Positions 6,729 to 38,113 of a stretch of DNA of 45,994 bases are shown piece by piece. The notes below the pieces were generated by a model that saw only the letters and a program-made list of their open reading frames with translations, had not been told where the DNA came from and did not search any database. Position numbers and translations under genes: made by a program. Position 1 is the stretch's first letter. Every line of letters starts with the position of its first letter. Location: positions 1 to 45,994 of IMG/VR virus record IMGVR_UViG_3300043411_002184. One strand, given 5' to 3'. Source of the DNA: a virus.

Positions 6729-6754
6729 GAAGATCAATATTTGGGATTTTCTAA

Positions 6755-10948: not shown

Positions 10949-13900
10949 ATGACTCAAAAAATCGATTTTACTATCCCGTTCAATAATCTCGGTCAGTATG
11001 TTCCTATAAATCTACGAAACACCGTAGTAGAAGGTCTTACATCAAACCTATTTGATAGGTTTATGACTAATGATGAGAGCATTCCGTTGTACGGATATGT
11101 TGGAAGAAAACCAAATTCTCCAGATGATAGGGCGCCAAAGATCCCACAAGCCGATGTCGAGCGCGATATTAATGCCATAATTCCAGTCTTCAATTTTAAA
11201 CGCGGTTCAGAATATTTTGCCTTTACTGTTGAAGATATTCTTAATAAAGCCAAAGTTCTTGGTGTAACTGCTTCGCAAAGCAAATGGCTATATACCAAAG
11301 CTAATAACTATGTACCGCCAATTGACATAGACAAATTTGCAAATTACTACAATTATTTCTGGGTAGCTAAATCACTTCCATCTGTACCGACAATGGAATG
11401 GAATTTGGAATTGCTTCCAGAATACTATACTATTGCAAAGCCAAAAGATTCTGATTTGGATAAGCTAAATGCGATCGCTGCTACAACAGAAGCCGTTGTT
11501 AGGACTGGATCAGGTTTTTATGATCAAGTCTTTAAATTGAAATTTGTAAACAATCAGGACTTTACAATTGTTGCTCAGAATACTCTTGGTGCCTATTCTA
11601 CATTACCGTCTCCTCCAAAAACTGTTTCTGGAACTTTATCTTCATTTTCAGGTGACCTTTCAGGAAATGGAACACTCAATATTCCTGCTAATGCAACTCT
11701 GGTCACTCTTACTGGATCAGGAGGAACCGGAACGGCTGTTCATAATCCAGGTCAACCGGCAATAATCGGGACACCTATATTCTCGACTAATGAAGCCGTA
11801 GATTGGGTCATAACAAATTTTGTATCACTAGGCGTTAGTAACGTTAATTATGGATTAGATTTTGGAAAACCTGCTGGCCTCCCAGCCATAGGGGATACGG
11901 CTACTTCTAATGTTTCTTTCCCGGATGGGCTCGGTCAATTTGCAAGTTATGAAGTAACTTGGGGTTATGGGACTTACTTCCCAATTATTGGTTATACACC
12001 GTCTCAACCGTATATTGCTCCATTCGACACCATTACCGTAGGTGATAGTACTACTGCAACATTAGATGGAAATACTGAAACTTGGATTGGCGGTTCTGGG
12101 GCTATTGCTGGAGCGACGCTAATTAAATCATTAACATCAGACGGTACTGGTCAAACCCTGACATTCAGCATTGGGTCTGGTGGAACTTTGTCTTATGAAT
12201 ATGTTGTTGTGGTCAGCAATGATCCAAATTTAGAAGTCAGCAATAATACCTTAAAAATTCCAATTGGCGTAGTATCAGTTTCACTAACTGGCGCTGGTGG
12301 TGTGGGATATTCTACATCTAGTCCAGGATCTCCAGCCGTGCCGCCACAACCAATTTATGGAAATGTTTTAACATTATCTTGGCAGTCATTAGGCACAATC
12401 GGAAATCCGGCTTACACTCTAGTACCTCAATTCCCTGTCCAGTCTGGAGTTACGCCGCCTACCACACCTCCTACAGCGTTAAATCAAACAGAGATCACAC
12501 ATCACTCAACAATCATAAGTGATGGTAGTGTTTGGGATGGATATTACAATAATGTTTCAACTAATTGGGGCGTTACTGGGACTTATCCAATTATTGGGTA
12601 TACCCCTGGATCTCCAGCAGTGCCACCTTCAATTATTAATGTCAATGGGCCTAACACCATGGCATCTCTAAATGGTAATACCATTACATGGGTAGGTGGA
12701 AATGGGCCTGTAGCTGGAACACCGTCCACACATCAATTGACGTCTGATGGAACAGGCCAAGATTTAACTTTTAGTATTGGTAAAGGTGGTTCATTTGCCT
12801 TTACTTATAATATTCTAGATGACTTTGCACCCGGAACAGGATATGCTTATTCACTTTCAACGGCTGTAGGATCAACGGCTATTGAAGATAACTATACTTT
12901 TGTAGTTACTGGACCACAGGGCCTCTTCACACTTCTAACTTTCACTATTAGAAGAGATCCAATATTTGATAGTAATGGTATCTTTGTTGGGTTTGAAGAA
13001 TTTGCACCGGCCGATACATTTATGATCGACACGGCTTTCTTGTCTTTTAATTATACTATCACTTTTGCTGGGGCACCCGGGTTGAAGGGCAAGATTAAAA
13101 ATGTTAATGTCTTGAGAGAGTATCAAACCATTGATGGAGTAAAATTAAAAGAGGGTCAGCGAGTTTTAGTTAAAAACAATTCTGCTGAAGAAAATGGTAT
13201 CTACACGGTGAGTCCACATGGTTGGACTAGAGCTAGTGATTATGATGGTGTTAATATTGCCCCAGGCGCTAAAATCTGGATTGTTGAAGGGATAGTTAAT
13301 GGCGGTAAATTATTTACCTCAGATATTAACAGACTTTGGTCTGGTGTCTTTGCTCCAAGTAATACAAATGATTGGCAAGAGGGTAACTTCTGGGTTCATG
13401 TAAATGATCTTTCAACTCTCTCTTTATCTAGAGCTGATGCAACACAAGCGGTACGCCCAATTATAGAGTATAGTAATTACGTTCAGTTGAATGCCTTTTC
13501 AGTTAATGGGGTCCCATCTGACAATGGAGGGATGGCCTTCAAACAAGAGAAGACAGAATTTAATCAATTGCCAATGTTCGATTTGTTCAGATATGATGGT
13601 ACACATTCTAATTTAGTCAGCTCAATTTTTTATTATGTAGAAGATCTTACAGCCGAAGTAGATTTAGATTTGCAAAAGCGCATCAAATTAGATATTGGTG
13701 GAAGTCGAGATGCGGTATTTAATCACGGGCTTGTAGATTTAAATGGTGATATGTTATTCTATAAATTGGCAGGAGAATTAAAATCTATCTGGCACAATGG
13801 GTATTCTGAAGCTACAGCTGTTGATCAAACTTTTATTGGGACCTCAAAAGGCAAAGTATCATCTTTGAATCTAACATCGATAGCCGTCCCGAGAACATGG

Positions 13901-16900
13901 ACATTCACTGCAACTTCTCCTGGTTCATTCTCAGTTTCTAGAACCTTGACAGTCGGAGTTGGAACAGAGACATTATCTAACCCACTAATTGTTGGCGTTA
14001 AGTATATTGTTGATGAACTAGAAATCCTTATTACTGCAGGTACAGTTTTATTTGCCGTTGGCGAAAACTTTGTGTTTGATGTAATTGCTGGCCCAGTTGC
14101 TTCGGCAATTACTTTTAACGGGGCTGTAAAAGGAACTATTACTGCTATTGTGCCTAGTTTCTATTCGCAACAACAAGTCTGGACTTTAAAGGCACTTACC
14201 GCAACATCATTCAGCATTGTAGGGTCAAAAAATCAAATTCTTCCTGTTGGTCTTGACACAGTCACAGTAGGGGTCCCATATACAAATTCAGAACTTTCAT
14301 GTACTATTCTTGCTGGAACATTGCCATTTAACGAAGGCGATGAATTTTTAGTCAGAATCGGTAATATTGAAATGCCGCGCTATGTGTATAGAAATTCTGA
14401 CGACGGAATCTTTGATCTTTACGGTGGGGAAGCCGCTGACATTAACAATGTTGGTGCATATCAAGTGTCAAGATCGTTTATTCACAATCCATATAATGAA
14501 TCTAGAGATGAAGTTCTTGAAGGTACTTTGTTCTCCCACTTCAGAGGAATTTTACAAAATCAATTTTCGGGCACTCAGAATAATTATGCCTTCGGCGGCG
14601 CTATTAAAAATTGGAGTGAACAACATACTCTGCTTGCATCTTTGTTGATGCAACGTGATCTGACACCTATTAGTGTCATAGATTTAGCCAAAAATGAATA
14701 TGAGGTCGGTATCAATACTATTGCTGACATCTATAAACAGAATATTGTGCAATACATTGCAACTAACGGTGTCGTAGACCCGAATGACACAATCGATCAA
14801 AATCAAAAGCTTGAAGCATTACTTAATGATATTTTGCAGAAGCGTACTCTTGATAATGATGTGCGCACTGTTATTTTTGATACTACTGCAGGTGTACTAG
14901 GTTTTCCAGCTACGCTTCCTCAATTAGGTATTGTGGATGCTAAAGTTCCTTATATCGGATTTGATAACGTTCTTGGGTACAATGTTCTTTTTCACCATGA
15001 TGGACATAGCTCTGTATTGGCTATTGATACTATTGATTTTAGACGCCAAGTTTTAAATAATTCAGCCGATATCACCGTAGTTAGATCAGACGGAACAACT
15101 ACTCCGGCTGTTGGGTCATTTACTACGACACCACCGATTAGACCATATAAAGGTGAGCTTTGGATCATGCCTTATGGTGCCGAAAGCTTAATGTTTGCAT
15201 TTGATGTTGATTCTGATCTTGATGCTCCGATTTCACTGTCTATTGGTACTTCTTGGTACCGTAGAGATACAGGTATTCTAGTTGAATGGGATGGTTCAGC
15301 CTGGATAAATCAACCAACCATTATGTTAAAATGGCGGCTGATTGATTTAGCTGACACATTGAATCAATTGATTCTTCTTGTTGAAAATAAATTGTTTAAT
15401 CATATCAACCCAAATGCTAGAAAGGTTGATTTTATCAGTTTACAAAGTGATCTGGCTTTTAGTGATCAAATGAAACGTGAATTATTTACGTTTGCTGCCA
15501 ACAATAATCTATCCCCATTAGGATCAGATTATACTCCGGCAGATGCATTCACATGGAACTATTCAAATGCGAATGTTGCGAATGTTGCCCCAGTGAATAC
15601 ACCGACTGTGCCGGCTCGCTGGTATAATGTGTTGTTGGAGCATCATAAAACCTTTTTAAATGTTATTCCGACAGAACGTCCAAATCTCGAACCATGGAAA
15701 CTTTTAGGTTTTACTGAACTGGCTCCATGGTGGTCTACTTTAACTCCAATTCAACAACAAGCATTTTCTCCGTATGCTCAACCGTCTGAATTGCAATATT
15801 TCACTAATGGTGGTTATGTTAAAGTTGCTAAAACGACCTTTGGTGCTACTCCATTAAATGGGTTGCAAGTTATAGACGGTGTCAGTTTAATTAGCGGGGA
15901 TCTGGTATTATTACAAAATGAAATTGGGCCTGAGAATAATGGTATTTGGATTGTCTCTTCAGGATTATGGACAAGGTCTACTTTAGAATTATCTCAAGAT
16001 ACTTTTGTTCAAGTCGAAAGCGGTGCTGTGAATTTTAATACCGCTTGGGCACTTTCGAATAATGTTGTGACCATTAATGTGGACCCAGTATTATTTAAAC
16101 AAGTCAGATATTGGACTGATGCCTTGTGGGCTTATATTAAATCTATGAGACCAGGACTAACATTAAGTGTCGACACTACACGTGATGGTTTGTTGCCTCC
16201 GTATTTTAGTCCTACGCTTCTGCAATCAGTAAATGCATTAACTACTGTTGTGCCATCTAATATTGCTAGCACTTATCAATATGGAGAAGGTAGCCCTGTT
16301 GAAACTGTCTGGAAGAGTTCGATCGAATATGGATATTCTTTAGCACGTGCTTTATTTAGACATGACCCTCTTCAGTTTCTTGGATTCTGCTGGGGATTCA
16401 ACTGGGTCGAAGTAGACAATATCTTATATGATGCCTATGACATCAATACCCCAGGCCATAAACGATTCAGATTACACGGTGATCAAAATCGAATTGTAGA
16501 TCGTGGCACCTCAAACATAACTTTGGCTGGTGTAAGTGGACTTCAAAATATTGATCTCTCAATCACCTTTGACGCTTATGAAGTTAACGGCGCGAATAGA
16601 TATCAGAACTTTTCTATTAGGAATAACAAAACTGGAATTAACATTGGGTATGTTCGTGAAGGCACACCAATTATTGATATAAATTATCTAAGCATAATCT
16701 ATGTAAATGGGATCGCAATAGAAGATCGTGGTTTGCCATTCCATATTGGCGATAAATTTACTGTTACTGCAAATGCAGATGGTTCAAATCTTTTAGTAAC
16801 TTTTACTGCTGCAGTAAATTATAGTTATCTCGGATTTGGCCAGATTTTTACAAATGCACTACGCTCGTCAAGTGTAGACACAAATGATAGTTTTTCGATA

Positions 16901-19900
16901 GAGGCATTCCGTGGCTGGGATGTTAATATGGGATACCGTGCTGGTGGCCTTGTTGCAACAGATGATTTAGATATAAAAACTGATTCAGCGTCACTTTCTG
17001 CATCTAGCTTTAATTTGATCTTTAAGAAGAATAGCATAGCTAAAGATATGTGGATTCAAGGATTACGTATTACTGTTACTAACTTTGGAAATTCTACAGT
17101 TAATAATGACGGTGTCTATATTCCAAAATCAGATGGCAGCGATTGGATATTTTTTATCGAGGGATACAACCCGCGTTATTCTAATATTGAATATTATAAT
17201 TTGAATCTATTAGGTGATTTTGTCACATTTAATATTTTAGATCAACGACACACTTCGACAGTTTGGAAAACTTTTACAGATAATGTTAGTGTAACAAGTA
17301 GCTACTTACCGCTCACTATCACAGGGATTCAAAATGTTATTAATTTCTTGTACGGGTATTCTATATATTTAGAAGATCAAGGTTGGGAATTTAATAAACT
17401 TACTACAAATAATATCGATGCCGAAACTGGTAGATCTAGAACCTGGCAATTAGAAGTTGAAAAATTTGTAGATTCTTGCTATACTGGAATGCAAATAGGT
17501 CGTGGCCATATTGTTAATCCATTTATGGATCAGCTTTGGGTCAGACAAGATACTGGTCTTCTTTCAAACTTTATTGATACATCTCTATTTGATATTACTG
17601 GACATCCAGGAGTATTTGATATTGCTGGTATTAAAATGCCGATCAACGATCTAATGGTAACTAGAGGTAATGAAGTATCTCAATTTACTGCAGAAGCTCC
17701 TATCTATTCGGCACACGCACAAATAGATAATTTTGAGCATCTTTTCATATTCAATTACTATGTTGAAGACTCTCTAAAATCCGGATTGCTGTATAATCCA
17801 TTTTCTGGTGCGCGAGTTATTACATACAAGTTCAATGGAAGACGTTCGGCTGCTGGGTCATTTAGACCAGAATTTGGTGGTCATTATCTACTTGGTGGAA
17901 GTGGTAATAGTCAGGTAAAACAGAACTTACAAGCATCCACTAATAACGTGGCAAATTTTTATGACACTAACTCAGTATTTCAAAATGACCTAACTTCTAG
18001 ACACGCATTGTCACTACTCGGGTTTAGCACTAAATCATATTTTTCAGATCTAGATATTTCTAAGAAATCTCAATTTAATTTCTGGAGAGGATTAATCCAA
18101 TCTAAAGGCACTAACATGTCTGTGGATGCCTATCTCAATAATGACAGGTTTGAAGATGCTAAGATTGACGAATACTGGGCATACAAGGTGGCAGAGTATG
18201 GTGATGCTAGACAAAAGACTTTCCCAGAATTGAAAGTGACAGTTGATGATTCAGTTCAACAGTTTACGCAATTCCAATTCGATGCTACCGAGACAAATGG
18301 TATTCTAGCTGACTATACTCAAATCAGTCGTCTTGATGAATCTCGTTGGTTTAGCTTAGAAGACCTTGATCAAGATGCTTATTTTAAAGCTGAAGCTGTT
18401 GGGACCTATTCTCGGTCTAATTTTACTCAAGCTGAAGTAGATAAAATTCCATTCGTTATCAATTTGCCTTTTATAGCCGACAAATTAGTAATTTCTGGTT
18501 CTGCCGATGTTACCAAAATCAATGCCACAACACTATTGGTTAATAGTGTTACTTTAGCTAGTACTTTGTTGGTTGTCGGATACGGGCCTGCTACTCCTCG
18601 TTATAATCCTATTAAGTTGTTTAACTATGTGGCTGATGAATTGGTCGAAGAAATTCCACTTTGGCATCCGGCATTTGGCCAACATACTCCAGCTGCTTTA
18701 GAATCTATCAACATTATTTCTACTCAAAATCCAGCAAAGTACAGCTTCAGTACTCAAGTAGTCAATAACAATTCGTATGATCCACTGAGACCATGGGGTA
18801 ATAATGAAATAGGACGAGTGTGGTTCGATACTAGAAATCTAAAATACATTCCGTATTATGATGAAGTAATCTTTCCAAATCGTGCGTCCAGATTAAATCG
18901 TTGGGGATCTCTGGCCGATTTTGCCACTGTTGATGTCTATGAGTGGGTTAAGTCTTCTGTTCCGCCTTCAGAATATAATGCTTTGGCATTAAAAGAAGCC
19001 GGCAATGGCGATCTTGACCCAAGTACCAAGGCTGCTGGCGAAGTAGCTTTACAAGAAACTTATGTTCGAGATCGACGCTGGTTCTTGCGACCAGTGGCGT
19101 GGTCATATTCTACAGTTCCGGCTTCCAATACCTTTGATTGGGCAGGTTCACCACCATTCACTGCTTCTTATAATTCTAAACTTTATTTTGAGTCTAATGG
19201 ACGAGTTTCTTTAGATGTCGGAACTTTTGCAAGCTTCAATATTACAGCCGGTATGCGAATTGGGACATGGGACCCAACGCCAAGTAATTCAAAGCCTACT
19301 AGCGAATATCTTGTTAATAATGAATTTTCAAAGATTATTATTGATGGTGCACAAGAGTTTACCACTATTCATCAGCCACAAGATCCGGGATTTTATCCTG
19401 CATGTACTGTAGATCTGAAATTTAATAAGTACACCAGTGCTATTGGGTCCTTAACCTTTACTGCTGAGCCTCTTGTTGTAGTGACTACAACAGTTGATGA
19501 TAATGGAACACTTATAACTACAGATGATTATATTGTCCAACTTACTGTGTCAGATGATAGTGGTATCTCTGAAACCGTAGTGGTAAATCATGGCCCTGCG
19601 GCTTTACCAAATGCCACGATTAACATCACAACAGGAGACTCTGTTGTGGTTGTGCTAGAATCACTCGGCTTAACAATTTCAGTAATCTCAACTAGCGGTT
19701 CTGGCGTTTATGAAATTACCGCATGGCAGAAAGCTATTATTGCTGCCTTAGAGATAGATATTCTTCTGCGCGACACGGTTTCGGTTACACCAATTATTCC
19801 ATGGGACAGCGGAAATTATGGAAATAGCTATGTTGTTTCAAATGATGAAAACGACCAAGAATATACCGATAATGCTGGTTTAGGCTGGAGAGCTTGGAGT

Positions 19901-21259
19901 GTCCCGACACAGGCACAACTAGACGCAGACGGAAAACAACCAGTATCTTCTTGGAGACCTTATCTTGGAGATCTGATTGAAATCCAAGACATGTCATTGA
20001 CCCAAATTCAAGAGGCTGTCGCTTATAGCAATTCACCACTTACACTTAACGATGGTGTAGTTATTAATCGGACTGATACTAAGTGGACAGAATGGAAGTT
20101 GTTAAAAGATGAGACTATAATCTATACACAACTTTCAAATGTTGTGTCTGATATATTATTATCGCACACTGAAATTATCGACTCCACAAAAACTTCAGTT
20201 TATGTTAATGGTATAACATTGTTGTCGGCATCATATTCTATAGTTGGAAAAGACATCACTATTTTGAATGTTATGCCTGGTTCAGAAGTTAGAGTCAAGA
20301 TTCGCCACTACGAACCATCTGCTGAAGAATTGACATTTGATCCTGAAGTAGCTGATGATTTGGGTCATCAACAACAATACAAGCAAGATTATGAATATGT
20401 AGCTTTGCCAGTTAGAGATTCTGAAGGTGCTTTAAGTAGTACACTTTATTATTTTTGGGTTAAAAACAAATCTATTGCTGCTAACGGTAAAAAGTTATCT
20501 GTTCAATCTATTGCTCGCGAACTTGTCAATGGGCCGGCTAACTACATAACCCTTCAACATTTGATCGGGTCAGGTGTCAACACAGATGTTTTAAGATATG
20601 ATGCTATCTCTATTTCAGGATTGTCATATGTGGTGGCAAAAGATAATACCTTTAAATTAAGATTTACTCGAAACTTTACGCTTCGGGACGATCCAGAAAA
20701 TATAGAATTAAAAGACACTCATACTGAGTGGGCATTGATGCGTCCTAACCAAACGACTAGAATTCCTGAAGCACTTTGGAATAAGATGGTTGATTCTGCC
20801 GTAGGTTCAGATGTTGTCGGAAATGCTATTCCTGAGATAAGGCGTGTACTTTATGATGAAAGAAATGGTACTTCTATCAAATATGGATTTGGTAAGGGAC
20901 AGTCTTTAGCTCCTAAGGATCTGTTGACTTCATCGATATCTTATACTATCGTAAATACAAAGTTGGTTAATAAAAATGTTCCAAAGAATTCTGCAGGAGT
21001 TTATCCAGTAGACTTTATTGAATTTTTGAATTTTGATCAAAGTGATTCTTGGTTTGCTACTCCTGAATCGACTCGCCAAACGTTAACAGATATTTGGACT
21101 AATGCTAAAGTGACACAAATTAATGAAATCTTTTTTGCTGCATTAAATGATATGTTGTCATGTAACTATGAAGTTAGTGACATTTTTAAGACCTCAAGGT
21201 TATCAGCATACTCTATTAAGATTGTTGATACTATCTCAGCTAAACCAGTTTATGAGTAA
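10949..21259 (+). CDS. Giant baseplate/tail structural protein (gp7 position), 3436 residues
   Basis: One uninterrupted 10.3-kb gene directly after gp6, where T4 has gene 7 (1032 residues). The N-terminus (residues 1-170) has a 'FANYYNYFWVA' segment I associate with large structural proteins of T4-like phages. Residues about 242-622 hold a tandem duplication of a glycine-rich beta unit. Two modules of the type 'IDGV-L--G-RVLVKN----NGIY-V---W-R' lie at about 715-810 and 1625-1715; this module is common in tail fibres. Two Ig-like repeats lie at about 981-1141 (W---A-s--F-v-G ... GD-F-v-I). The C-terminal 100 residues are helical, with FFAALNDMLSC and KTSRLSAY segments. No enzyme motif was seen. 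The stop overlaps the next gene (ATGAGTAA). A wedge-to-fibre platform role is inferred from position; gp7 homology is unproven. Confidence 0.65.
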   Translation: MTQKIDFTIPFNNLGQYVPINLRNTVVEGLTSNLFDRFMTNDESIPLYGYVGRKPNSPDDRAPKIPQADVERDINAIIPVFNFKRGSEYFAFTVEDILNKAKVLGVTASQSKWLYTKANNYVPPIDIDKFANYYNYFWVAKSLPSVPTMEWNLELLPEYYTIAKPKDSDLDKLNAIAATTEAVVRTGSGFYDQVFKLKFVNNQDFTIVAQNTLGAYSTLPSPPKTVSGTLSSFSGDLSGNGTLNIPANATLVTLTGSGGTGTAVHNPGQPAIIGTPIFSTNEAVDWVITNFVSLGVSNVNYGLDFGKPAGLPAIGDTATSNVSFPDGLGQFASYEVTWGYGTYFPIIGYTPSQPYIAPFDTITVGDSTTATLDGNTETWIGGSGAIAGATLIKSLTSDGTGQTLTFSIGSGGTLSYEYVVVVSNDPNLEVSNNTLKIPIGVVSVSLTGAGGVGYSTSSPGSPAVPPQPIYGNVLTLSWQSLGTIGNPAYTLVPQFPVQSGVTPPTTPPTALNQTEITHHSTIISDGSVWDGYYNNVSTNWGVTGTYPIIGYTPGSPAVPPSIINVNGPNTMASLNGNTITWVGGNGPVAGTPSTHQLTSDGTGQDLTFSIGKGGSFAFTYNILDDFAPGTGYAYSLSTAVGSTAIEDNYTFVVTGPQGLFTLLTFTIRRDPIFDSNGIFVGFEEFAPADTFMIDTAFLSFNYTITFAGAPGLKGKIKNVNVLREYQTIDGVKLKEGQRVLVKNNSAEENGIYTVSPHGWTRASDYDGVNIAPGAKIWIVEGIVNGGKLFTSDINRLWSGVFAPSNTNDWQEGNFWVHVNDLSTLSLSRADATQAVRPIIEYSNYVQLNAFSVNGVPSDNGGMAFKQEKTEFNQLPMFDLFRYDGTHSNLVSSIFYYVEDLTAEVDLDLQKRIKLDIGGSRDAVFNHGLVDLNGDMLFYKLAGELKSIWHNGYSEATAVDQTFIGTSKGKVSSLNLTSIAVPRTWTFTATSPGSFSVSRTLTVGVGTETLSNPLIVGVKYIVDELEILITAGTVLFAVGENFVFDVIAGPVASAITFNGAVKGTITAIVPSFYSQQQVWTLKALTATSFSIVGSKNQILPVGLDTVTVGVPYTNSELSCTILAGTLPFNEGDEFLVRIGNIEMPRYVYRNSDDGIFDLYGGEAADINNVGAYQVSRSFIHNPYNESRDEVLEGTLFSHFRGILQNQFSGTQNNYAFGGAIKNWSEQHTLLASLLMQRDLTPISVIDLAKNEYEVGINTIADIYKQNIVQYIATNGVVDPNDTIDQNQKLEALLNDILQKRTLDNDVRTVIFDTTAGVLGFPATLPQLGIVDAKVPYIGFDNVLGYNVLFHHDGHSSVLAIDTIDFRRQVLNNSADITVVRSDGTTTPAVGSFTTTPPIRPYKGELWIMPYGAESLMFAFDVDSDLDAPISLSIGTSWYRRDTGILVEWDGSAWINQPTIMLKWRLIDLADTLNQLILLVENKLFNHINPNARKVDFISLQSDLAFSDQMKRELFTFAANNNLSPLGSDYTPADAFTWNYSNANVANVAPVNTPTVPARWYNVLLEHHKTFLNVIPTERPNLEPWKLLGFTELAPWWSTLTPIQQQAFSPYAQPSELQYFTNGGYVKVAKTTFGATPLNGLQVIDGVSLISGDLVLLQNEIGPENNGIWIVSSGLWTRSTLELSQDTFVQVESGAVNFNTAWALSNNVVTINVDPVLFKQVRYWTDALWAYIKSMRPGLTLSVDTTRDGLLPPYFSPTLLQSVNALTTVVPSNIASTYQYGEGSPVETVWKSSIEYGYSLARALFRHDPLQFLGFCWGFNWVEVDNILYDAYDINTPGHKRFRLHGDQNRIVDRGTSNITLAGVSGLQNIDLSITFDAYEVNGANRYQNFSIRNNKTGINIGYVREGTPIIDINYLSIIYVNGIAIEDRGLPFHIGDKFTVTANADGSNLLVTFTAAVNYSYLGFGQIFTNALRSSSVDTNDSFSIEAFRGWDVNMGYRAGGLVATDDLDIKTDSASLSASSFNLIFKKNSIAKDMWIQGLRITVTNFGNSTVNNDGVYIPKSDGSDWIFFIEGYNPRYSNIEYYNLNLLGDFVTFNILDQRHTSTVWKTFTDNVSVTSSYLPLTITGIQNVINFLYGYSIYLEDQGWEFNKLTTNNIDAETGRSRTWQLEVEKFVDSCYTGMQIGRGHIVNPFMDQLWVRQDTGLLSNFIDTSLFDITGHPGVFDIAGIKMPINDLMVTRGNEVSQFTAEAPIYSAHAQIDNFEHLFIFNYYVEDSLKSGLLYNPFSGARVITYKFNGRRSAAGSFRPEFGGHYLLGGSGNSQVKQNLQASTNNVANFYDTNSVFQNDLTSRHALSLLGFSTKSYFSDLDISKKSQFNFWRGLIQSKGTNMSVDAYLNNDRFEDAKIDEYWAYKVAEYGDARQKTFPELKVTVDDSVQQFTQFQFDATETNGILADYTQISRLDESRWFSLEDLDQDAYFKAEAVGTYSRSNFTQAEVDKIPFVINLPFIADKLVISGSADVTKINATTLLVNSVTLASTLLVVGYGPATPRYNPIKLFNYVADELVEEIPLWHPAFGQHTPAALESINIISTQNPAKYSFSTQVVNNNSYDPLRPWGNNEIGRVWFDTRNLKYIPYYDEVIFPNRASRLNRWGSLADFATVDVYEWVKSSVPPSEYNALALKEAGNGDLDPSTKAAGEVALQETYVRDRRWFLRPVAWSYSTVPASNTFDWAGSPPFTASYNSKLYFESNGRVSLDVGTFASFNITAGMRIGTWDPTPSNSKPTSEYLVNNEFSKIIIDGAQEFTTIHQPQDPGFYPACTVDLKFNKYTSAIGSLTFTAEPLVVVTTTVDDNGTLITTDDYIVQLTVSDDSGISETVVVNHGPAALPNATINITTGDSVVVVLESLGLTISVISTSGSGVYEITAWQKAIIAALEIDILLRDTVSVTPIIPWDSGNYGNSYVVSNDENDQEYTDNAGLGWRAWSVPTQAQLDADGKQPVSSWRPYLGDLIEIQDMSLTQIQEAVAYSNSPLTLNDGVVINRTDTKWTEWKLLKDETIIYTQLSNVVSDILLSHTEIIDSTKTSVYVNGITLLSASYSIVGKDITILNVMPGSEVRVKIRHYEPSAEELTFDPEVADDLGHQQQYKQDYEYVALPVRDSEGALSSTLYYFWVKNKSIAANGKKLSVQSIARELVNGPANYITLQHLIGSGVNTDVLRYDAISISGLSYVVAKDNTFKLRFTRNFTLRDDPENIELKDTHTEWALMRPNQTTRIPEALWNKMVDSAVGSDVVGNAIPEIRRVLYDERNGTSIKYGFGKGQSLAPKDLLTSSISYTIVNTKLVNKNVPKNSAGVYPVDFIEFLNFDQSDSWFATPESTRQTLTDIWTNAKVTQINEIFFAALNDMLSCNYEVSDIFKTSRLSAYSIKIVDTISAKPVYE
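11672..12814 (+). repeat. Tandem duplication inside the giant gene (two units of about 0.55 kb)
   Basis: Unit 1 (about 11672-12213) and unit 2 (about 12241-12814) encode the same protein pattern. Each starts with NxTLxIP and a VSLTGxGGxG turn, continues through TYPIIGYTPxxP, a TxASLDGNTxTWxGGxGxxAG segment, and ends with LTSDGTGQxLTFSIGxGG. The units have diverged and differ in length in the middle, so the duplication is old rather than an assembly artefact. Confidence 0.75.
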
Positions 21260-24200
21260 CATTTCAAATAAAAATTCGCAGTACATCAATTCGCTGGTTT
21301 CTTATCTAAATGATACGAAACCATACCATTGCAAATTAACTGATGTTGTAGAAGAGTATCAATTTTCTGATTCATTTAATGTCAATTTTCAAGAAAAGAC
21401 ATTTACCACTGTAAAGATAGGGCCAGTATTATCTAGCCCATTTAATTTCTTTTCGAGTGGTGATCCACAGTACAATTCAGTCCCAATCAAAAAGTTATTT
21501 TCGGCTGGGCATACAGAATTTTCATCAAATATAGATTTGAATCATCCAGGTTCGATAAAGGCCTTTAGAGATGAAATTACAGATTTTGCTGGAATGCCAT
21601 TTGTTTATTCAAAAAAATCTTTTGATGGAATCGGTATCTCTGAAGTATTTGTTGAACGAAATGGGGATAAAACTCTAAGAGAACCATTATTAGAAGGTCA
21701 TGATTACTTTCAAAGCCACGGTGGGTGTCAGATCAATATTAAGCAAGTACTTGACGCAAATTTGTCATTTGAACCGTTGTGGTGTGAATCGCGTGACGAT
21801 AATGTAATTTTTGAATCATTTGCGTTGACACGTCGATTAGCTAACGATTATGCAAATCCGTCATCTTCTATTAGAAGAATCGAGGGATTACTTGTTCAGA
21901 TGAGAACTGGGCTATTAAATGCCATTGTCTCTACCCCGTATGATTTTAATCAGTTTCCGTTTTCTAGTGCACCAAAAGAACCTGGGACGAACGTTCCGAT
22001 TTCTGGACCACTTTTAGAATATACCACAACTGGATTAGTATTAGTAGATAATCTTCTTGCACAAATCAGAGTACCACAGGATTATCAAGCCTTATATAAT
22101 TCAGCAATTGCCGATGGTGTAGTAATCTTTCCAGCATTTTTAACTGGATATGATTTAGTTGTTTATCTTCAAGCTAGAATTGCAAATCTTTCTGCAGGCA
22201 CAATATCGCTTTTAAATGGCCTTCTTGCTATTTTAGATTCTGAATTATTACCTAGGGACTACGAAGAACTTCTTATCATTCTAACAAATGGTGATCCTGG
22301 CGATGTGTCGGTTTTGCCTATAAATTTCCCAACATTGCCTGTTCCGATTATACCAGGATTTGAGGACTGGCTAGGATCAAATCCATTGTTACACCCATTT
22401 GATTCTACACCAAGCTCTTATGATTTCTGGCCGTGGGACGAAGATCCTTTTGGATATGATAATGGGTCTAGATTGGTTTTTGATAAATTTGTTGATGATC
22501 AGCTAAGTCATTTATCCCCATCAATTTACTTTAATGTCTTTACTGATTTTGCACAAAGGCATTCTGGTAAACCGAAATTTAGTGATGTCACATCGCCATT
22601 TATAAAAATCACTGGTGTTATAGCCAATGATTTATCCAGCCCTGGGAATAGCTGGCGAGTAATCGCTTCCAGTAATTCTGTTTCATCATATGACGTTATC
22701 AGTGGAATTTCTGGTTATATTGGGTCGTTTGTTATTTCAGGTGTTCTAACTACATTTTCGTCAAGTCAAGTTTCATTTGTTGCAACTAAAATTTCTCAAC
22801 CCACGATTGGGCAAGAAGTTTCTATCGAGAATGCAAACAGATTGGTTATCAATCATGGTGCACCACTCGAGACATGGGATCTTATTAAAGTCAACCCAAT
22901 GTCGTATACTCGACCTCTATTAAATTCTAATAGATACGGTTATATTCAAGACCAAGATGGTATTAGACATAAAGTTTCTCTATTAAATCTTATGTTGGTT
23001 CCGCAACCAACCCTTAGTGCAGATATAGTTTTAACGGCCAGAAGTGGTGGTCAATATTTCGATATCTCAAGTCCAGATATTTCCTATGTCGGATTGGCTC
23101 AAGTTGATATACCTTTTAATGACGGCAATTTGGCATTCACTATTATTTCAGGAACAGCTGGTCCATTCCAGAAGGGTGACAAATTCTATTTTAGAATTGA
23201 GAATGCGGCACAACCAGTTCAGATCTTAGACCTTTCTTTAGGATACGGTTTTGATCTTGATAGTTTTGATGCACAAGAATTAGTTTATAACAATACTAAT
23301 CCATTGCATCCTGATTATAATCGACCAGTTAATTTTACTTTTGATACGCGATTTGTCGATTATGATTTGTCATCTTTAAATGTAGTAGCGACAGATGATG
23401 CAGTAGATGGACGTAAGTGGAGGCTTTCTGCTATTCCAAATCTGTTAAAGCCTATTATCACACAGAAGAAAGACACCACGAGTTCTAATGCTATAGATCT
23501 TCAGGATACTTTGATTGGTGGAGATCCGTTAACGGCGCCGCTATATGCAATGCTTGGTGGTTTGACACCTGATTTGAAGTTGTATTATGCCGATTCATTT
23601 ACTATAGAATGGTCTGACGATAATTTTAATACAGTAAATTCTATTGGTGTGATTGCTGTTGGTGGATCTTATGTGGATGTGATTCAAGGTGTTTCGTTCT
23701 CAGTTTTGCCAGGAAATAAACCATTCGTTGCCGTAGAATCAGACGATCATATTTCAGGTGTTGTTTCTGGTGGTGATGTATTTTCTTTTACTGTTTCCAA
23801 TATCCCGAGTAAAATTGCAGAACACACCAATGGAGTAGTTTCTAGTTATGCCCCTAGAACTGTAGTTCACGGTGATACGTTTCATGAAACAGTTTCAGCT
23901 AATTGGTTTGTAACCTTCTCTTCTCCAACAGATTTTGAAGTGATGGGGTATTTGCTCGAAGGTAATGCCGGTTCATTAGTCCCAGGAACTCCACTATCGG
24001 CTTCGTTATCTACAAGTGGTCTAATTGTTGGCGAAGGGCAAAGCTTCGATTTATTCGGTTTGGGTTTGACATTTTATCCAGGACTTTATGGATTTGGCGC
24101 TGGTGATCAAATTACCTTTACCACATCATTTAAAAAGCCATCTGTATTAGTACATGGTTCAGTATCAGGGTGGCAGAAAAGTGCTATTATTGGTGAACCT

Positions 24201-27176
24201 TATTGGAATGGATTAATTGGGTTTAAGATTAATAAACCTATAGCCAAGTTATTTAATCCAATTACAAAAAATCATCTCTTTACAGATATTGATAATTCTA
24301 TTATCCCGGTTGCACCTCCACCTCCGCCAGTGGTGCAAGGGCATACTACATTATTAAATGTCAAATATGGAAATGATCCATGTCAATTTGTTAATGTATA
24401 TATTCCAATTGGGTCTATAAAAGGCGTGATATTAAGAGTTCATGGAGGTGGATGGAATAGCGGAAATGTCCTCCCATACCCATCAACGGTTGATGAAGAA
24501 CCTATTTTAATTCCAGTGGTTGAAACTGGTTATGTTGTGGTAGATGTCAATTATCGAGGAATTAATAATTCATCTGGATCTTTAGGCAATGGAATATTCC
24601 CGAATAACGTTAATGACGTTGTAACAGTTCTGAATTATTGTACTGTTTCAGGTGCTGGTGCAAATACCACATTAGATTCTAGATGGCAGACGCTCTATGA
24701 GATGATTGCCGATAAGGGATTTGTAGTTACAGGAACAAGTGCTGGTGGTCATTTGGCATTAATGGGTGTCTGTACTTATGGTGTAAGCTCACAAGTGTGG
24801 CCTAAGGCTGTAGAAATTATTGCTGGGCCATTTAATTTAGACTACAACAACATCTTCATTGATCCGCTTGTTAAACAATCTATCATTGATCCATATATTA
24901 ATGGTGGAAGTTTAAGTGATGCTAGTCCACACTTCTTATATGGGTCAGACATTTCACCTGGACCTTGGTTTGCAGCCATTAATAATTCGTCGTGTAAATT
25001 TAGCTTTATCCATAACGACAACGATACTCTAGTTTCAAATGGAATGGCCCGCACATCTATTTTGAATTTTGTTCAATTCAATACGAATGCATCAGCTTCC
25101 TTTGTTGCAGAAGGTCCTCCTCGTGCAGATTTTAATGGTCTTACACCAGTAACGTTACTTGGAAATACACCAGATAACACCACGGCCACATTACCTACGA
25201 CTGGGAATGCTTTAGGTGATTGCTGGTTCGCAAATAATCAATATTGGGTATTCAATAATGGAACTTATGCAGGTGACAATAATTCACCTGCCTCAGTTGG
25301 TGGATTCACTAGATGGTTTGATCATAATTACCTTGGGCAAGAATCTGACTATATTATTGCTTTTGGTAATAATAATTTTGTTGTGTCATTACCACCAATT
25401 TTAAATCCAATAATATCTGCACTTGATAATACTTGGATTTTTGGAAATGGGTCACTCACTGTTGCTAGAATTCGATTTGATGTTCCGTCACTTACTTATT
25501 GGTTAACACCCACACCAATTGGGTCTTTGACACCAACTGGGTGGATAGTAAATAGATCAGACATTGGTGTCACTGGATATTTGCCATTAGACGGACTTTT
25601 CTCAGACCAGTATATTTCTATTCTGACATCCAATATGGATCCAGGCAATGCCATGACATTGCAACTTTCAATTATTGCAGACTCAATAGATTGGTGGAAT
25701 GCACAAGATTCTGTAATTCTGCACCCATCTATTAATGCCAAGCTTCCAACTAATACAGACTTTGTCTTAATCGATAAAACTACAAAAGATACTCTTGCCT
25801 TTAATCTGAGTTATGGATCAGTACTACCAACAGATGTTCCGTCTTTATCATCGTTGGCACCTGTTTCTATTGATCCTAGGTATATTAATCTCTCAACTGG
25901 TTTTTCGCCAATCAGTCTGAAAAATACTTCCCCAGAAACAGAAATACTAAATGATTGGATTCCATTTACTGTAAAAGAATATGACAGTGCAACATCGCGC
26001 GCTGCCTTTAGTGATGGTGCCACTCGTATTAAATTAATTGCTGCAGGATCAGGTGAAGAGATTGGAACGGTTGTTCAACACGGATTAGAATTTCCATGGT
26101 CATCTCAAATGGAATGGGACCTAGATTTCTTTGCCAAATACTTGCCACTAAACTCAGAAGCCAATATTGTAGTTTATGGTTCTGGGCTTAATGAAAAACT
26201 CAACGTTAGAATATCTGAAAGCTTAAAGTTCTTAATTAGCGGTGGGGCATTAACAACAGACTTCCAATTCAATGAAACTATTCATATTGATGTTTCAGAA
26301 TATCATGATTGGAAGATTACACAATTTTCAGATGATTTGGTAAATGCCGAAATTTTAGATTCTCCTTTTGGTGGATTCTTGCCAGGATATGATAATCTCC
26401 CATATGACTTCGAAACTCAAATAGGAGACATTAATTTATCAGGTGGTGGTAGTTATGATGTTGGTACACCACTAACAGATCACTTCTATGAAGCACGACA
26501 GCTTGCTGGGTTAGATCCACTTAATGATTTCCAATTAGCACAATCGCAGCAGTGGAGAGATTCACGTTTAGCAATTTTACTTTCGCAACTCTCTAACTTT
26601 TTAAATGGGTCTCTTCAAAATACCACGTTTGATTTCTTTTTGTCACAACTTGATGCATTATCTGGCCCAGTAGCAATTGCTACTGGCTTTGGATTACCTG
26701 CACGTGGGCTTGGGATAGAGATTAATATTCAAGCCGGCCCAAGACCAGAAGATAATTTAGTTGGTGCTGGTGTTATAGATGCACTAGTTTTAGGTTCATT
26801 TGATCCTATCTCTCCATTTGACGATGACAACTTTGACACTAGTGAGTTTGATGCTAATGGAGAAAGAATTGCAATTTTAAATACTACATTTGCACCATCA
26901 ATCCCAGCGATTATTCCTGTATTCACAACTTACGAAGACTTTGAAACGCCTTTATCTGTTGTTGGGTTTAATGCACAGATATTCGAATTTAGCTTTACCA
27001 TTACATCTGGAAATCTTTTAGCAATTCAGAATATGCAAAAACCAGAGATTTTTGTTTGGCTACCACTTGCTTCAATGCCAGTTCAAATCCCTGTAGTCGA
27101 TAAGGTCGGAATTGGTAAATATCGAGTAAGTCTCCCATATCTTTCAGAAGCGAAATTCTATATCATAAATCCATAA
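21252..27176 (+). CDS. Giant structural protein with inserted alpha/beta-hydrolase (esterase-like) domain, 1974 residues
   Basis: I chose ATG 21252, which overlaps the upstream stop (ATGAGTAA); the longer frame from 21147 would run 108 bases into the upstream gene. The N-terminus has 'YINSLVSYLNDTKPYHCKL', a segment seen in T4-like tail proteins. Residues about 590-960 contain three or more Ig-like repeats related to those in the preceding gene. After a five-proline linker (about 1021-1027) an esterase-like domain occupies about 1030-1290: oxyanion-hole motif HGGGW (H1064), nucleophile elbow GTSAGG with Ser1163, and candidate acid Asp1258 in HNDNDTLV. The final catalytic His expected after the last strand is not obvious; a GPPRADF segment stands there. 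A fibre-like 'LPTTGNALGDCWFANNQYW' module follows. By position it may replace gp8. The likely role of the domain is removal of esters from host surface glycans. Confidence 0.7.
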   Translation: MSNISNKNSQYINSLVSYLNDTKPYHCKLTDVVEEYQFSDSFNVNFQEKTFTTVKIGPVLSSPFNFFSSGDPQYNSVPIKKLFSAGHTEFSSNIDLNHPGSIKAFRDEITDFAGMPFVYSKKSFDGIGISEVFVERNGDKTLREPLLEGHDYFQSHGGCQINIKQVLDANLSFEPLWCESRDDNVIFESFALTRRLANDYANPSSSIRRIEGLLVQMRTGLLNAIVSTPYDFNQFPFSSAPKEPGTNVPISGPLLEYTTTGLVLVDNLLAQIRVPQDYQALYNSAIADGVVIFPAFLTGYDLVVYLQARIANLSAGTISLLNGLLAILDSELLPRDYEELLIILTNGDPGDVSVLPINFPTLPVPIIPGFEDWLGSNPLLHPFDSTPSSYDFWPWDEDPFGYDNGSRLVFDKFVDDQLSHLSPSIYFNVFTDFAQRHSGKPKFSDVTSPFIKITGVIANDLSSPGNSWRVIASSNSVSSYDVISGISGYIGSFVISGVLTTFSSSQVSFVATKISQPTIGQEVSIENANRLVINHGAPLETWDLIKVNPMSYTRPLLNSNRYGYIQDQDGIRHKVSLLNLMLVPQPTLSADIVLTARSGGQYFDISSPDISYVGLAQVDIPFNDGNLAFTIISGTAGPFQKGDKFYFRIENAAQPVQILDLSLGYGFDLDSFDAQELVYNNTNPLHPDYNRPVNFTFDTRFVDYDLSSLNVVATDDAVDGRKWRLSAIPNLLKPIITQKKDTTSSNAIDLQDTLIGGDPLTAPLYAMLGGLTPDLKLYYADSFTIEWSDDNFNTVNSIGVIAVGGSYVDVIQGVSFSVLPGNKPFVAVESDDHISGVVSGGDVFSFTVSNIPSKIAEHTNGVVSSYAPRTVVHGDTFHETVSANWFVTFSSPTDFEVMGYLLEGNAGSLVPGTPLSASLSTSGLIVGEGQSFDLFGLGLTFYPGLYGFGAGDQITFTTSFKKPSVLVHGSVSGWQKSAIIGEPYWNGLIGFKINKPIAKLFNPITKNHLFTDIDNSIIPVAPPPPPVVQGHTTLLNVKYGNDPCQFVNVYIPIGSIKGVILRVHGGGWNSGNVLPYPSTVDEEPILIPVVETGYVVVDVNYRGINNSSGSLGNGIFPNNVNDVVTVLNYCTVSGAGANTTLDSRWQTLYEMIADKGFVVTGTSAGGHLALMGVCTYGVSSQVWPKAVEIIAGPFNLDYNNIFIDPLVKQSIIDPYINGGSLSDASPHFLYGSDISPGPWFAAINNSSCKFSFIHNDNDTLVSNGMARTSILNFVQFNTNASASFVAEGPPRADFNGLTPVTLLGNTPDNTTATLPTTGNALGDCWFANNQYWVFNNGTYAGDNNSPASVGGFTRWFDHNYLGQESDYIIAFGNNNFVVSLPPILNPIISALDNTWIFGNGSLTVARIRFDVPSLTYWLTPTPIGSLTPTGWIVNRSDIGVTGYLPLDGLFSDQYISILTSNMDPGNAMTLQLSIIADSIDWWNAQDSVILHPSINAKLPTNTDFVLIDKTTKDTLAFNLSYGSVLPTDVPSLSSLAPVSIDPRYINLSTGFSPISLKNTSPETEILNDWIPFTVKEYDSATSRAAFSDGATRIKLIAAGSGEEIGTVVQHGLEFPWSSQMEWDLDFFAKYLPLNSEANIVVYGSGLNEKLNVRISESLKFLISGGALTTDFQFNETIHIDVSEYHDWKITQFSDDLVNAEILDSPFGGFLPGYDNLPYDFETQIGDINLSGGGSYDVGTPLTDHFYEARQLAGLDPLNDFQLAQSQQWRDSRLAILLSQLSNFLNGSLQNTTFDFFLSQLDALSGPVAIATGFGLPARGLGIEINIQAGPRPEDNLVGAGVIDALVLGSFDPISPFDDDNFDTSEFDANGERIAILNTTFAPSIPAIIPVFTTYEDFETPLSVVGFNAQIFEFSFTITSGNLLAIQNMQKPEIFVWLPLASMPVQIPVVDKVGIGKYRVSLPYLSEAKFYIINP

Positions 27177-32852: not shown

Positions 32853-32880
32853 AAAAAAGGCTACTTCGGTAGCCTTTTTT
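32853..32880. terminator. Bidirectional rho-independent terminator
   Basis: A perfect 12-base-pair stem AAAAAAGGCTAC / GTAGCCTTTTTT closed by the stable TTCG tetraloop. The A-run and T-run make it work in both directions. It ends the fibre transcript on the plus strand and overlaps the stop codon of the minus-strand endonuclease gene (TAA at 32881-32879). Confidence 0.9.
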
Positions 32881-33847
32881 ATTGCCTGAAATTTATGGTG
32901 AATACTTTATTCCCACAATCTTCAACTTTTAGAAAAGTATTTATTTCCATGTTTTCAATTTCAGATTTAGAATTATCATATTTGACACCTAACAATTTCT
33001 TAAGTTGTGGTTTTTGACATTGAAAATTACTTTGTAATCGACCGTTCTTAATCCAAGATTGAGCTGGTGGCGTATCTTTAAGCTCGGCGAAGCCAAGAAG
33101 CCGATAAACTTTGCCTCGTGAATATCTCTTGTCGGCATATCCAATTAAAGTGGATCCGACAAAATCATTTTTAACTTTTGCAAAAAGATTTTGAATTCCA
33201 TCAATAACCGTGGTATTCAGTTTTGTAGCTATCCTATAAATTTCAAAATCCGCATTTATACCTGTCCTATTTTCGCCAATAGAAATGGCTTGAACAATTT
33301 TATTTTTATAAATTAACCCTAAACAATAATCGGCTTGTCTATATCCTAGAAGGTGATTTTCATTGAAAAATAATTCACTTTCTTGTTTCGATATAGGTCT
33401 TAGGTCACAGCTACTTGCAAAAATGGTGTTTTCAAATTTGTTGAGCTTTGTATAAATCATGGATAAGCAAATTTCAAATTTATTTAAAAGCTCATAATCC
33501 CAAAAATGGAGAAGTTGAATAGGTGATTTTTCTGTTTTAAATAAGAGACCTCTTCCATTAGAATATCTAGATTGATGCCAATAAACCCCATTCACTTCAA
33601 TCCCAATATCATTGATCACCATATCGATTTCGTATGGAGAAATCAATTTCCTATTATTCATTTCTATATTAGGAAATGATTGTTCTAAAATATTAAACAA
33701 TTTTTGTTCAATGGCCGATCTACCACATTTACAATATGGACAAACTGGGACTGAGCCATTTCCAAAATAAGCCGAAAAAGTTTTGTTGCACCCCTTATGG
33801 ATGAATTTGTACTCTACATGTTGTCCAATGTAATCTTCAATGCCCAC
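32879..33847 (-). CDS. Homing endonuclease, C-terminal part (VSR-like nuclease core), downstream of frameshift
   Basis: A 322-codon frame with only a GTG at its start; it is better read as the continuation of the frame ending at 33814. It begins in the middle of a zinc-knuckle region (CNKTF, CPYCKC). A nuclease core of the VSR/EDxHD type follows: 'SAIEQKLFNILEQ', then 'YEIDMVINDIGIEVNGVYWH' at about residues 68-87, where Glu/Asp and the ending G-x-Y-W-H are the family's active-site signature (I-Bth0305I-type). The remaining part ('FFNENHLLGYRQADYCLGLIYKNKIV', 'YADKRYSRGKVYRLLGF', then a Q-K-x-x-L-K-K-L-L ending) is the region usually found after the core in these phage endonucleases. The codons look intact apart from the shift. 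The stop lies inside the terminator. Activity depends on whether a fused product is made. Confidence 0.7.
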   Translation of the reverse strand: MGIEDYIGQHVEYKFIHKGCNKTFSAYFGNGSVPVCPYCKCGRSAIEQKLFNILEQSFPNIEMNNRKLISPYEIDMVINDIGIEVNGVYWHQSRYSNGRGLLFKTEKSPIQLLHFWDYELLNKFEICLSMIYTKLNKFENTIFASSCDLRPISKQESELFFNENHLLGYRQADYCLGLIYKNKIVQAISIGENRTGINADFEIYRIATKLNTTVIDGIQNLFAKVKNDFVGSTLIGYADKRYSRGKVYRLLGFAELKDTPPAQSWIKNGRLQSNFQCQKPQLKKLLGVKYDNSKSEIENMEINTFLKVEDCGNKVFTINFRQ

Positions 33848-34632
33848 ATAAATGGTTCAATCTTAGAATTAGCAAGCTGTTGTAATCTAATTGGGAGAAT
33901 TTCTTTTTTGTATGTTTTTATTCTTTTAATCTTATGTCTGGTTTTAAATTCTTCAGATTGTGCAATATGTTCTACACCAAAGTTTTTCAAATTATATTCT
34001 TTTAATTTTTCTCTCACTTCAGGAATTTGAAGATTGTATTCTACTCCGTGTCTTTTTAAATTTGTTTGTTTCACTTTATCTTTTATGATTTGGCTAGAAC
34101 TCGGATTCTCATTCCCAAATTTTTTAAGACTCGTGACTTTTGCTTTTTCACGCACTTCTTTACTTTGAAGAGTAGATGTCGTTCCATATTTTCGTAATGA
34201 GGTATTTCTGACTTTTTCTTTAAATTCTGGTGTAGATGAAGCCGATTCAAAACCATATTTTTCTAAATTGGTTTGCTTAATCTTATTTTTAAAGATCTCA
34301 CTCTGATAGACATTTTCGACACCATATTTTTCTAAATTAGATTTTGATCTCCTTTTCAAAAGGAGACTTTGAGCTACAGGACACTTCACACTACAAAATT
34401 GTCTAAAACCCTTTTCAGTGCTCCAGAGTGATGTAATGGCTCCACAAGCACATCTAGGTCTAACGTAATCATTATGAACTAAAGCATATACTTTTTCTTT
34501 AAATGTGAATAAATCTTTCATTTCAGTATTGTTTATAAGATCTCTTAATGATTTATTAGATTTCCAAAGCTTACAATTGTACTTTCCATTTTTCACCATC
34601 TTTGCATTAAAGTCTTCAATAAGCTTGCCCAT
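33814..34632 (-). CDS. Homing endonuclease, N-terminal part (zinc motif and repeated DNA-binding modules), upstream of frameshift
   Basis: A 272-residue frame starting at ATG 34632 with GAGGAG 7 bases upstream. A zinc-type C-x-C-G ... FCSxKC motif lies at about residues 60-80. From about 95 to 250 there are about six units of the form K-x-x-LxKYGxxNxxQSxxxxxKxK, each of roughly 23-25 residues, typical of the repeated minor-groove-binding modules of phage homing endonucleases with VSR-like nuclease cores. The frame ends at TAG 33814-33816, and the nuclease core is in the -1 frame from the overlap on. Reading 'EPFM' into 'GIEDYIGQHVEYKF' across the overlap restores a normal protein. This points to one lost or gained base. 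No slippery heptamer is visible, so a broken gene is more likely than programmed frameshifting. Confidence 0.7.
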   Translation of the reverse strand: MGKLIEDFNAKMVKNGKYNCKLWKSNKSLRDLINNTEMKDLFTFKEKVYALVHNDYVRPRCACGAITSLWSTEKGFRQFCSVKCPVAQSLLLKRRSKSNLEKYGVENVYQSEIFKNKIKQTNLEKYGFESASSTPEFKEKVRNTSLRKYGTTSTLQSKEVREKAKVTSLKKFGNENPSSSQIIKDKVKQTNLKRHGVEYNLQIPEVREKLKEYNLKNFGVEHIAQSEEFKTRHKIKRIKTYKKEILPIRLQQLANSKIEPFMWALKITLDNM

Positions 34633-36475: not shown

Positions 36476-38113
36476 ATGGGATGCTGTCCTGAATCGCCAC
36501 CAATTCTGGTTGCTGATGATACACCACCAAATAATGGTCCTGAGCAAGAGCTGAGACCAGGTGAAACCGTAGAGTGCTTCTCTAAGAGGGCAGGTAATTC
36601 TTCGGGTGCACATGATGATGCAGTTGAAAATCGGTTAGAAAAAATTCAAAATGAGAGCATTACAACTAGTAGCTCGGCCTCTGTTAATGTGCAATTCACA
36701 TTAACTCCTGGATCTATTTCCCCAAATGTAACCTATGAAATTTCAGGCGATGCTTTACCTGGAGTTACATTTACAACGTCTGGATTATTATCTGGTACCT
36801 TTGATAGCTCTGTTCATAGTAAAAAGTTAACAATTTCTATTTCAGCTAAGTCTAATGGTACTGAAATAGATAATAGGACTTATTCATTCTCACCGCAAAT
36901 TAGTACGGACAATAATTCGATCAAATTCGTATTGCCATTGCCTGGTGGAACCGTAAATTCCCCATTCGGCATGAGGATGCATCCAATCCATAAAGTTATG
37001 AAACTACATACTGGGATTGATTTAAAAATTGCGCCAGGTGTGGATGGGGATGTAGTTGCTGCTGCAGACGGTGTAGTCACTAAAGCATCAATGACTGATC
37101 CTCGTGGATACGGTAATGCTATTCATATTAAACATGAATCCGGAAGTGGAAAGCATTTGTGTACTACCACTTATAATCACCTTGCTAAATTTTATGTGGC
37201 TGTAGGTCAGAGAGTAATGGCCGGACAGAAAATTGCAAGAGAGGGTGGTGCACGTGGTGTTATAGGTTCTGGTGGTTCAACTGGACTACATTTACATTTT
37301 GAATGTAAACTCCCAAATGGGTCTTTTACCGATCCGCTGCCCTTTATAAAAGGCACAGTGGCTATTGATAGTACTAAAATGGCAAATGGGAACCCCGGTT
37401 CTCCAAGTGCAGTATCAAATAACTCTGCTTTGACGGTTTCAGATGTATCGGCTAAAGGTGGATGCCCTGAAATAGGAACTTCAAATTACCCAAAAGATCC
37501 TGACCCGAATAAGCCAGAACCAGCACAAGAAAATCTTCCTTCATCTGGAAATCCTGAATTTGAAGCTTTCGAACACGCTTGGTTTATTTGTATGAAGGGC
37601 GAGGTTGGTCCAGATTGGAATACCGCACCTGGCACCGATCCGTCAGATCCGGATATTTTAGCAGGAGCATGTGAAACTAAATTGCAGAAGAAAAAATGTG
37701 GCTTTAAAGAATGGCCACAAGCCGCTGGTGGAACAACAAAATTTGGCATTGCTAGTTCTGGTAATCCTGCCACTAACATTAAAGCATCAGATTATGCGGC
37801 ATGTAAAAAACTTGGGTATCAAAATTATTGGTTAAGAGGTAAGATTAATCCAAGTACTTTAGGAAAATATCTTGGTATCTTTATGTTTGATACAAATTAC
37901 CACCATGGGGACGGTAATGGGCGAAGCATTTATAATAAAGCTAATATTGCTAATATACCAAATACAGCTTCTAGAGACATTCAAATGGACGCTCTTGAAA
38001 AGTTATATAACTCAAGAATGGATTTTGCTAATACGTTGAAAGACACTTCTCTGATTAAGGGCGTCAGGAATAGAGTCACGGCGACATACAACTATATAAA
38101 AACACTTCCATAA
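36476..38113 (+). CDS. Bifunctional peptidoglycan hydrolase: M23 endopeptidase plus GH108-like muramidase
   Basis: A 545-residue protein with no membrane segment. Order: a Cys/Pro-rich start (MGCCPESPP), a putative Ig-like (He_PIG) domain at about 70-140 (GDALPGVTFTTSGLLSGTF), an M23/LytM peptidase at about 150-295 with HTGID (H178, D182), Tyr-Asn-His (H235) and LHLHFE (H272, H274) as zinc and catalytic residues, a proline-rich linker (about 335-358), and a GH108-like domain at about 360-545 with candidate acid Glu376 (KGEVG), GGTTKFGI at 418-425, a YW segment at about 451 and a helical C-terminal region like the family's peptidoglycan-binding part. Two bond types in peptidoglycan would be cut. 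The ATG abuts the o-spanin stop. Because the gp5-like spike lacks a lysozyme, this enzyme could serve in the virion, in lysis, or both. Confidence 0.8.
   Translation: MGCCPESPPILVADDTPPNNGPEQELRPGETVECFSKRAGNSSGAHDDAVENRLEKIQNESITTSSSASVNVQFTLTPGSISPNVTYEISGDALPGVTFTTSGLLSGTFDSSVHSKKLTISISAKSNGTEIDNRTYSFSPQISTDNNSIKFVLPLPGGTVNSPFGMRMHPIHKVMKLHTGIDLKIAPGVDGDVVAAADGVVTKASMTDPRGYGNAIHIKHESGSGKHLCTTTYNHLAKFYVAVGQRVMAGQKIAREGGARGVIGSGGSTGLHLHFECKLPNGSFTDPLPFIKGTVAIDSTKMANGNPGSPSAVSNNSALTVSDVSAKGGCPEIGTSNYPKDPDPNKPEPAQENLPSSGNPEFEAFEHAWFICMKGEVGPDWNTAPGTDPSDPDILAGACETKLQKKKCGFKEWPQAAGGTTKFGIASSGNPATNIKASDYAACKKLGYQNYWLRGKINPSTLGKYLGIFMFDTNYHHGDGNGRSIYNKANIANIPNTASRDIQMDALEKLYNSRMDFANTLKDTSLIKGVRNRVTATYNYIKTLP

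Follow-up and report, generated by a model that had tools for sequence, protein, structure and literature searches.

A protein of 1974 residues encoded in the baseplate gene cluster of an IMG/VR virus record carries an α/β-hydrolase domain (residues 1027-1392) that is probably an active, virion-borne carbohydrate esterase using Ser1163, Asp1258, and His1358; its activity, substrate, and location in the virion are what we infer. The whole record of 45,994 bases, hereafter the window, was analysed and is likely a fragment. The features of the domain, its carrier, and the neighbouring genes are collected in Table 1.

Table 1. Features of the window. Residue numbers refer to the 1974-residue carrier.
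Feature	Position	Strand	Basis
Baseplate wedge, gp6-like, 1191 aa	6755-10330	+	45% identity over 498 residues to XacN1 ORF324
Giant baseplate protein, 3436 residues, gp7-like by position	10949-21259	+	54% identity to L017 protein
Carrier, 1974-residue baseplate-associated protein	21252-27176	+	Open reading frame; orthologues directly 3' of giant gp7-like gene
Conserved N-terminal segment (...LVSYLNDTKPYHCKLTDVVEEYQF...), probable virion anchor	21252-21431	+	Kept in L012, L014, L015, L022
Inserted cassette, ~380 residues (~1003-1383)	24258-25400	+	L017 join; boundary and orthologue alignments
PPPPP linker, from residue 1022	24315-24329	+	Sequence
α/β-Hydrolase core, strands 1-8, residues 1027-1287	24330-25112	+	Pfam BD-FAE; AlphaFold2 model 2; Foldseek
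HGGGW oxyanion-hole motif, residues 1064-1068	24441-24455	+	Sequence; invariant in three phage members
GTSAGG nucleophile elbow, residues 1161-1166, Ser1163	24732-24749	+	Flanked by strand 131-136 and helix 138-154 in model 2
HNDNDTLV, residues 1254-1261, Asp1258, catalytic acid	25011-25034	+	Aligns with family Asp; follows model strand 223-229
GPPRADF, from residue 1288, canonical His region, here Arg1291	25113-25133	+	R/L/L in three members
Fibre-like insert, ~62 residues (1295-1356)	25134-25319	+	PHROG 3904 tail fibre, E 4e-4
His1358, proposed displaced catalytic base	25323-25325	+	Sole invariant His after Asp1258 in three members
Predicted terminal helix αF, residues 1363-1377	25338-25382	+	Helix 337-351 of model 2

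The domain matched the Pfam family BD-FAE (PF20434) with an E-value of 9e-12 and a score of 45.4 bits (curated cut-off, 26.8 bits). AlphaFold2 model 2, based on an alignment of 13 sequences, had a mean pLDDT of 68, with 62 residues at 90 or more; values in the core were mostly 80-93, and the inserted fibre-like module was of low confidence in the structure models. The strands of the model (residues 5-12, 20-26, 32-37, 68-73, 131-136, 160-164, 223-229, and 254-261) and its helices followed one another in α/β-hydrolase order. Both of two AlphaFold2 runs gave this eight-strand order with Ser1163 (model residue 137) directly between a strand and a helix; Asp1258 is model residue 232. Foldseek returned over 1000 PDB matches at E ≤ 1e-3, α/β-hydrolases, including Lip_vut4 (3e-13), BD-FAE structures 6XYC and 6TKX (~2e-11), feruloyl esterase 4ZRS (6e-10), and 6MLY. 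The best solved fold by E-value was 6NKF, named a lipase. A Pfam search of the carrier gave no SGNH match, and the predicted fold is that of an α/β-hydrolase, not SGNH/GDSL. The original prediction had proposed an esterase-like α/β-hydrolase in a 1974-residue protein from the positions of PPPPP, HGGGW, GTSAGG, HNDNDTLV, and GPPRADF, with structure prediction and structural search as the check. All of these positions were correct, the check returned the expected fold with Ser1163 at a strand-helix elbow, and the run of motifs is not due to chance. Likewise, the model and the alignments support its choice of Ser1163 and Asp1258.

In α/β-hydrolase esterases of the BD-FAE kind, the catalytic His is expected past strand 8 and ahead of the final helix, usually ~32 residues after the Asp. 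At the canonical site, a His is present in 21 of 22 reference enzymes, mostly 30-32 residues after the Asp. Arg1291 occupies about that place in the window, and two related phage domains, L028 and L085, have Leu, so the original remark that the final His was not obvious at GPPRADF was well founded. The fibre-like module (LPTTGNALGDCWF..YWVFNNGTY), a weak match to tail-fibre family PHROG 3904, separates strand 8 from the last helix, as it does in L028 and L085; a collagen-like fibre of L028 also contains a segment resembling it. After the module, the chain resumes as GGFTRWFDH(1358)NYL. In model 2, the predicted terminal helix begins five residues past His1358; pLDDT was about 52-67 in the terminal-helix block and below 50 in the His1358 stretch. 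The distance from His1358 to the PP linker, ~24 residues, compares with 21-41 for its counterpart in most reference enzymes.

Conservation points to the same residue. The window domain has six His, and the only ones invariant in the three members are those of HGGGW and SAGGH and His1358, whose equivalents lie in WFTHWTI (L028) and WFQHNYT (L085). The stretch around it, PASVGGFTRWFDH, is the best conserved part of the domain, with 10 of 13 positions invariant (77%), as compared to 8 of 15 (53%) in the elbow and 16-20% in the neighbouring strand-8 and terminal-helix segments. Part of this conservation may serve the small fibre-like module: by comparison with the L028 fibre, GGFTRW seems to be the last strand of the module. 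That fibre lacks the His that comes soon after GGFTRW in the cassette. In unguided alignment A6, the canonical His fell on His1358; in MAFFT alignment A8 of 13 sequences it did not, and a profile HMM alignment intended to settle the point stopped short of His1358, the C-terminal half having diverged too far. Based on these data, we regard His1358 as the likely catalytic base. The original prediction had offered a displaced His or a binding domain derived from an enzyme; conservation and topology favour the former over the latter.

The carrier gene lies directly 3' of baseplate wedge genes. Translation from the ATG at 21252, which overlaps the end of the giant gene, yields 1974 residues, and the longest open reading frame encodes 2009. 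The giant protein was 29% identical to ORF325 of phage XacN1 over 550 residues, and XacN1 ORF324, the match of the gp6-like protein, is annotated as 'baseplate wedge'. The window also encodes a hub protein (374 residues, 30% identical to XacN1 ORF321) and a gp25-like protein (126 residues, 39% identical to XacN1 ORF323). Based on these similarities in the baseplate cluster, the phage is distant kin of the giant myophages Xanthomonas XacN1 and Stenotrophomonas RAS14. The giant gene is common to 18 IMG/VR loci, many of them on contigs of 130-370 kb. The carrier itself had no match among the XacN1 wedge ORFs or the wedge families of Pfam and PHROG, and searches of named phages with its non-esterase part and with the L006 orthologue gave none. 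Synteny suggests that the carrier is present in the virion.

Orthologues of the carrier follow the giant gene at ten loci, eight of them distinct (L006, L007/L008, L009/L010, L011, L013, L016, L017, and L023), and all lack the esterase cassette. The idea that this baseplate protein normally contains the esterase was accordingly rejected. In L017, residues 212-854 and 857-1352 correspond to 306-1002 and 1383-1878 of the window protein, joining the cassette flanks within two residues. According to the boundary alignment, the cassette entered a loop flanked by '..GFKINKPIAKLF' and 'W.FGNGSLTVARIR'. The original coordinates, 24316-25140, end too early: the inserted unit also takes in the fibre-like module and what is probably the terminal helix. 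In third-codon-position GC, the cassette (0.239) matches its flanks (0.245 and 0.235) and thus does not appear to have been acquired very recently. No esterase was found in 13 related giant-phage records, some of which may be fragments.

Other parts of the carrier vary as well. The L023 orthologue (12481-18564) has C-terminal LamG domains, which are ConA-like and lectin-like (Laminin_G_3, E 9e-21), and private segments of 635 and 186 residues occur in L013 and L010, respectively; distant relatives retain mainly the N-terminal ~50 residues (TKPYHxKL). As the cassette is absent from the orthologues and their accessory domains differ, the carrier has the appearance of a modular adhesin, or enzyme carrier, attached to the baseplate by its N terminus rather than of a wedge. 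Its description in the original prediction as a giant wedge-like protein was apt for its position beside wedge genes, but the constant N-terminal anchor, the varying accessory domains, and the lack of a wedge match speak against it.

Single window sequences used as queries found no viral relatives; these came to light when alignments, either of the gp7-like protein or of pairs of esterases, served as queries. The domains of L085 (726 residues) and L028 (2234 residues) are 47% and 44% identical to that of the window, respectively, and retain HGGGW, the Ser, the Asp, the fibre-like module, and the equivalent of His1358. In both proteins, the esterase is N-terminal, is followed by Ig-like domains, and is encoded in a gene cluster of tail-fibre type, unlike the window esterase with its place inside a giant-phage baseplate protein. 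With the window, they make up the three members that carry the module; we lean slightly towards viewing these as a phage-specific subfamily in which a fibre-type module between Asp and His, with the His ~70 residues later, caps the site and the unit is mobile between unrelated tail proteins. A search of 299 genomes of L027's phylum, run without a positive control, found no member. Two matches labelled 'Acinetobacter phage MD-2021a', including L004 (CAKLQH020000022.1), were discarded as bacterial chromosome, given housekeeping genes such as rsmI and dnaQ next to them. Directly upstream of the esterase gene, L028 encodes an 860-residue sedolisin-type (S53) peptidase-like protein (5382-7964). The esterase proteins of L028 (7983-14684) and L097 (13165-15345) have in common a region after the Ig-like domain (GQDS.F...RYPRN.WH...) that is possibly a glycosidase-like barrel.

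We propose that a modular, adhesin-type protein attached to the baseplate acquired a BD-FAE-type domain in one of its loops, by way of flexible linkers. As the tail of the giant myophage nears the cell, the esterase would strip acetyl or other acyl esters from the host's capsule, O-antigen, or exopolysaccharide. Ser1163 would be the nucleophile, acting with Asp1258 and with His1358, which would sit behind the fibre-like module that interrupts the loop joining strand 8 to the last helix; the module could also help to hold the glycan. The lectin-like LamG domains in a relative's same protein were counted as support for a glycan-directed role. The active site of BD-FAE is shallow and open, and the enzyme cleaves off both feruloyl and acetyl groups (PMC8165983); such a site would be compatible with polymeric substrates. 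In Klebsiella prophages, tail fibres of the SGNH type have acetyl esterase activity, and gp63.1 of phage G7C deacetylates LPS (PMC13123978); by analogy with them, the cassette would deacylate a host glycan during adsorption.

The replacement of the canonical His in all three phage members would also suit a dead glycan-binding domain, an esterase minus its His whose fibre-like module forms part of the binding surface. The lectin-like domains of the relative fit this reading too, and His1358 may not reach Ser1163. Nevertheless, HGGGW, GxSAGGH, and NDTLV are invariant even though the three proteins are divergent (44-47% identical to that of the window), an inactive protein need not retain such motifs, and no stretch is better conserved than that of His1358; we consider a dead domain unlikely. 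An active hydrolase directed at a lipid, a peptidoglycan-linked ester, or a feruloyl-type ester is less likely still. BD-FAE itself cuts feruloyl as well as acetyl esters (PMC8165983), 6NKF is called a lipase, and virion-associated lipases were predicted earlier in Cellulophaga phages (PMC5380687), but the lectin-like domains argue for a glycan. Finally, the fusion was seen on only one contig, as would be the case if misassembly of metagenomic reads had put a bacterial esterase into a phage gene. The reading frame is unbroken through 1974 residues, third-position GC is even across the joins, and the esterase resembles the phage versions with the module, not bacterial ones, making a chimera very improbable.

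The tail esterases known to trim host glycans are mostly SGNH enzymes. Those of G7C (gp63.1) and the Klebsiella prophages resemble the proposed esterase in being tail-borne, and their acetyl esterase activity has been shown (PMC13123978), but their fold is SGNH, whereas the window domain is predicted to be an α/β-hydrolase. With BD-FAE (PF20434; 6TKX/6XYC), representing bacterial feruloyl and acetyl xylan esterases, the domain shares this fold, HGGxW, GxSAGG, and an Asp after strand 7. It differs from BD-FAE, whose triad is Ser128-Asp237-His269 (PMC8165983), in having no His at the canonical site, in the ~62-residue module in the His loop, and in being embedded in a phage baseplate protein. 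BD-FAE-like esterases of phages also include PHROG 3341 proteins (mycobacteriophages), L005, and L066-L078. They are free, those of PHROG 3341 and L005 being ~260 residues long, and the canonical His is present in L005 and in its relatives from viruses, unlike in the window domain. In L082, L083, L084, and L087, an HGGGW esterase domain that has the canonical His (EKGHSF) lies within a 968-residue, repeat-rich, tail-type phage protein. The novelty originally claimed for the domain is thus reduced, as free HGGGW esterases and esterase domains in other phage tail-type proteins already exist. What appears to be new is the subfamily whose His loop carries a fibre-like module, together with the insertion of such an esterase in the baseplate protein of a giant phage; no description of this was found in the open-access literature. 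A structure-based survey of phage polysaccharide-degrading folds, covering glycoside hydrolases and lyases but not esterases, screened for the α/β-hydrolase fold and reported only four other folds (PMC11326577). If active, the domain would represent a second enzyme fold for deacylation of surface glycans by phage virions, reveal where a giant myophage places such an esterase, and provide a directly testable example of a relocated catalytic His.

Other genes of the window have features of their own. Two related small proteins with leucine-rich-type repeats (SLEGAP..., SLHNIHKHIKH) are encoded between baseplate genes at 5836-6303 and 10333-10866. Two tail-region genes on the minus strand (32879-34632) have LEKYG-type repeats and the look of endonucleases, possibly homing endonuclease-like. 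A 545-residue protein (36476-38113) combines an M23 peptidase domain (E 2.6e-18) with a weak GH108 match and is possibly a two-enzyme lysin.
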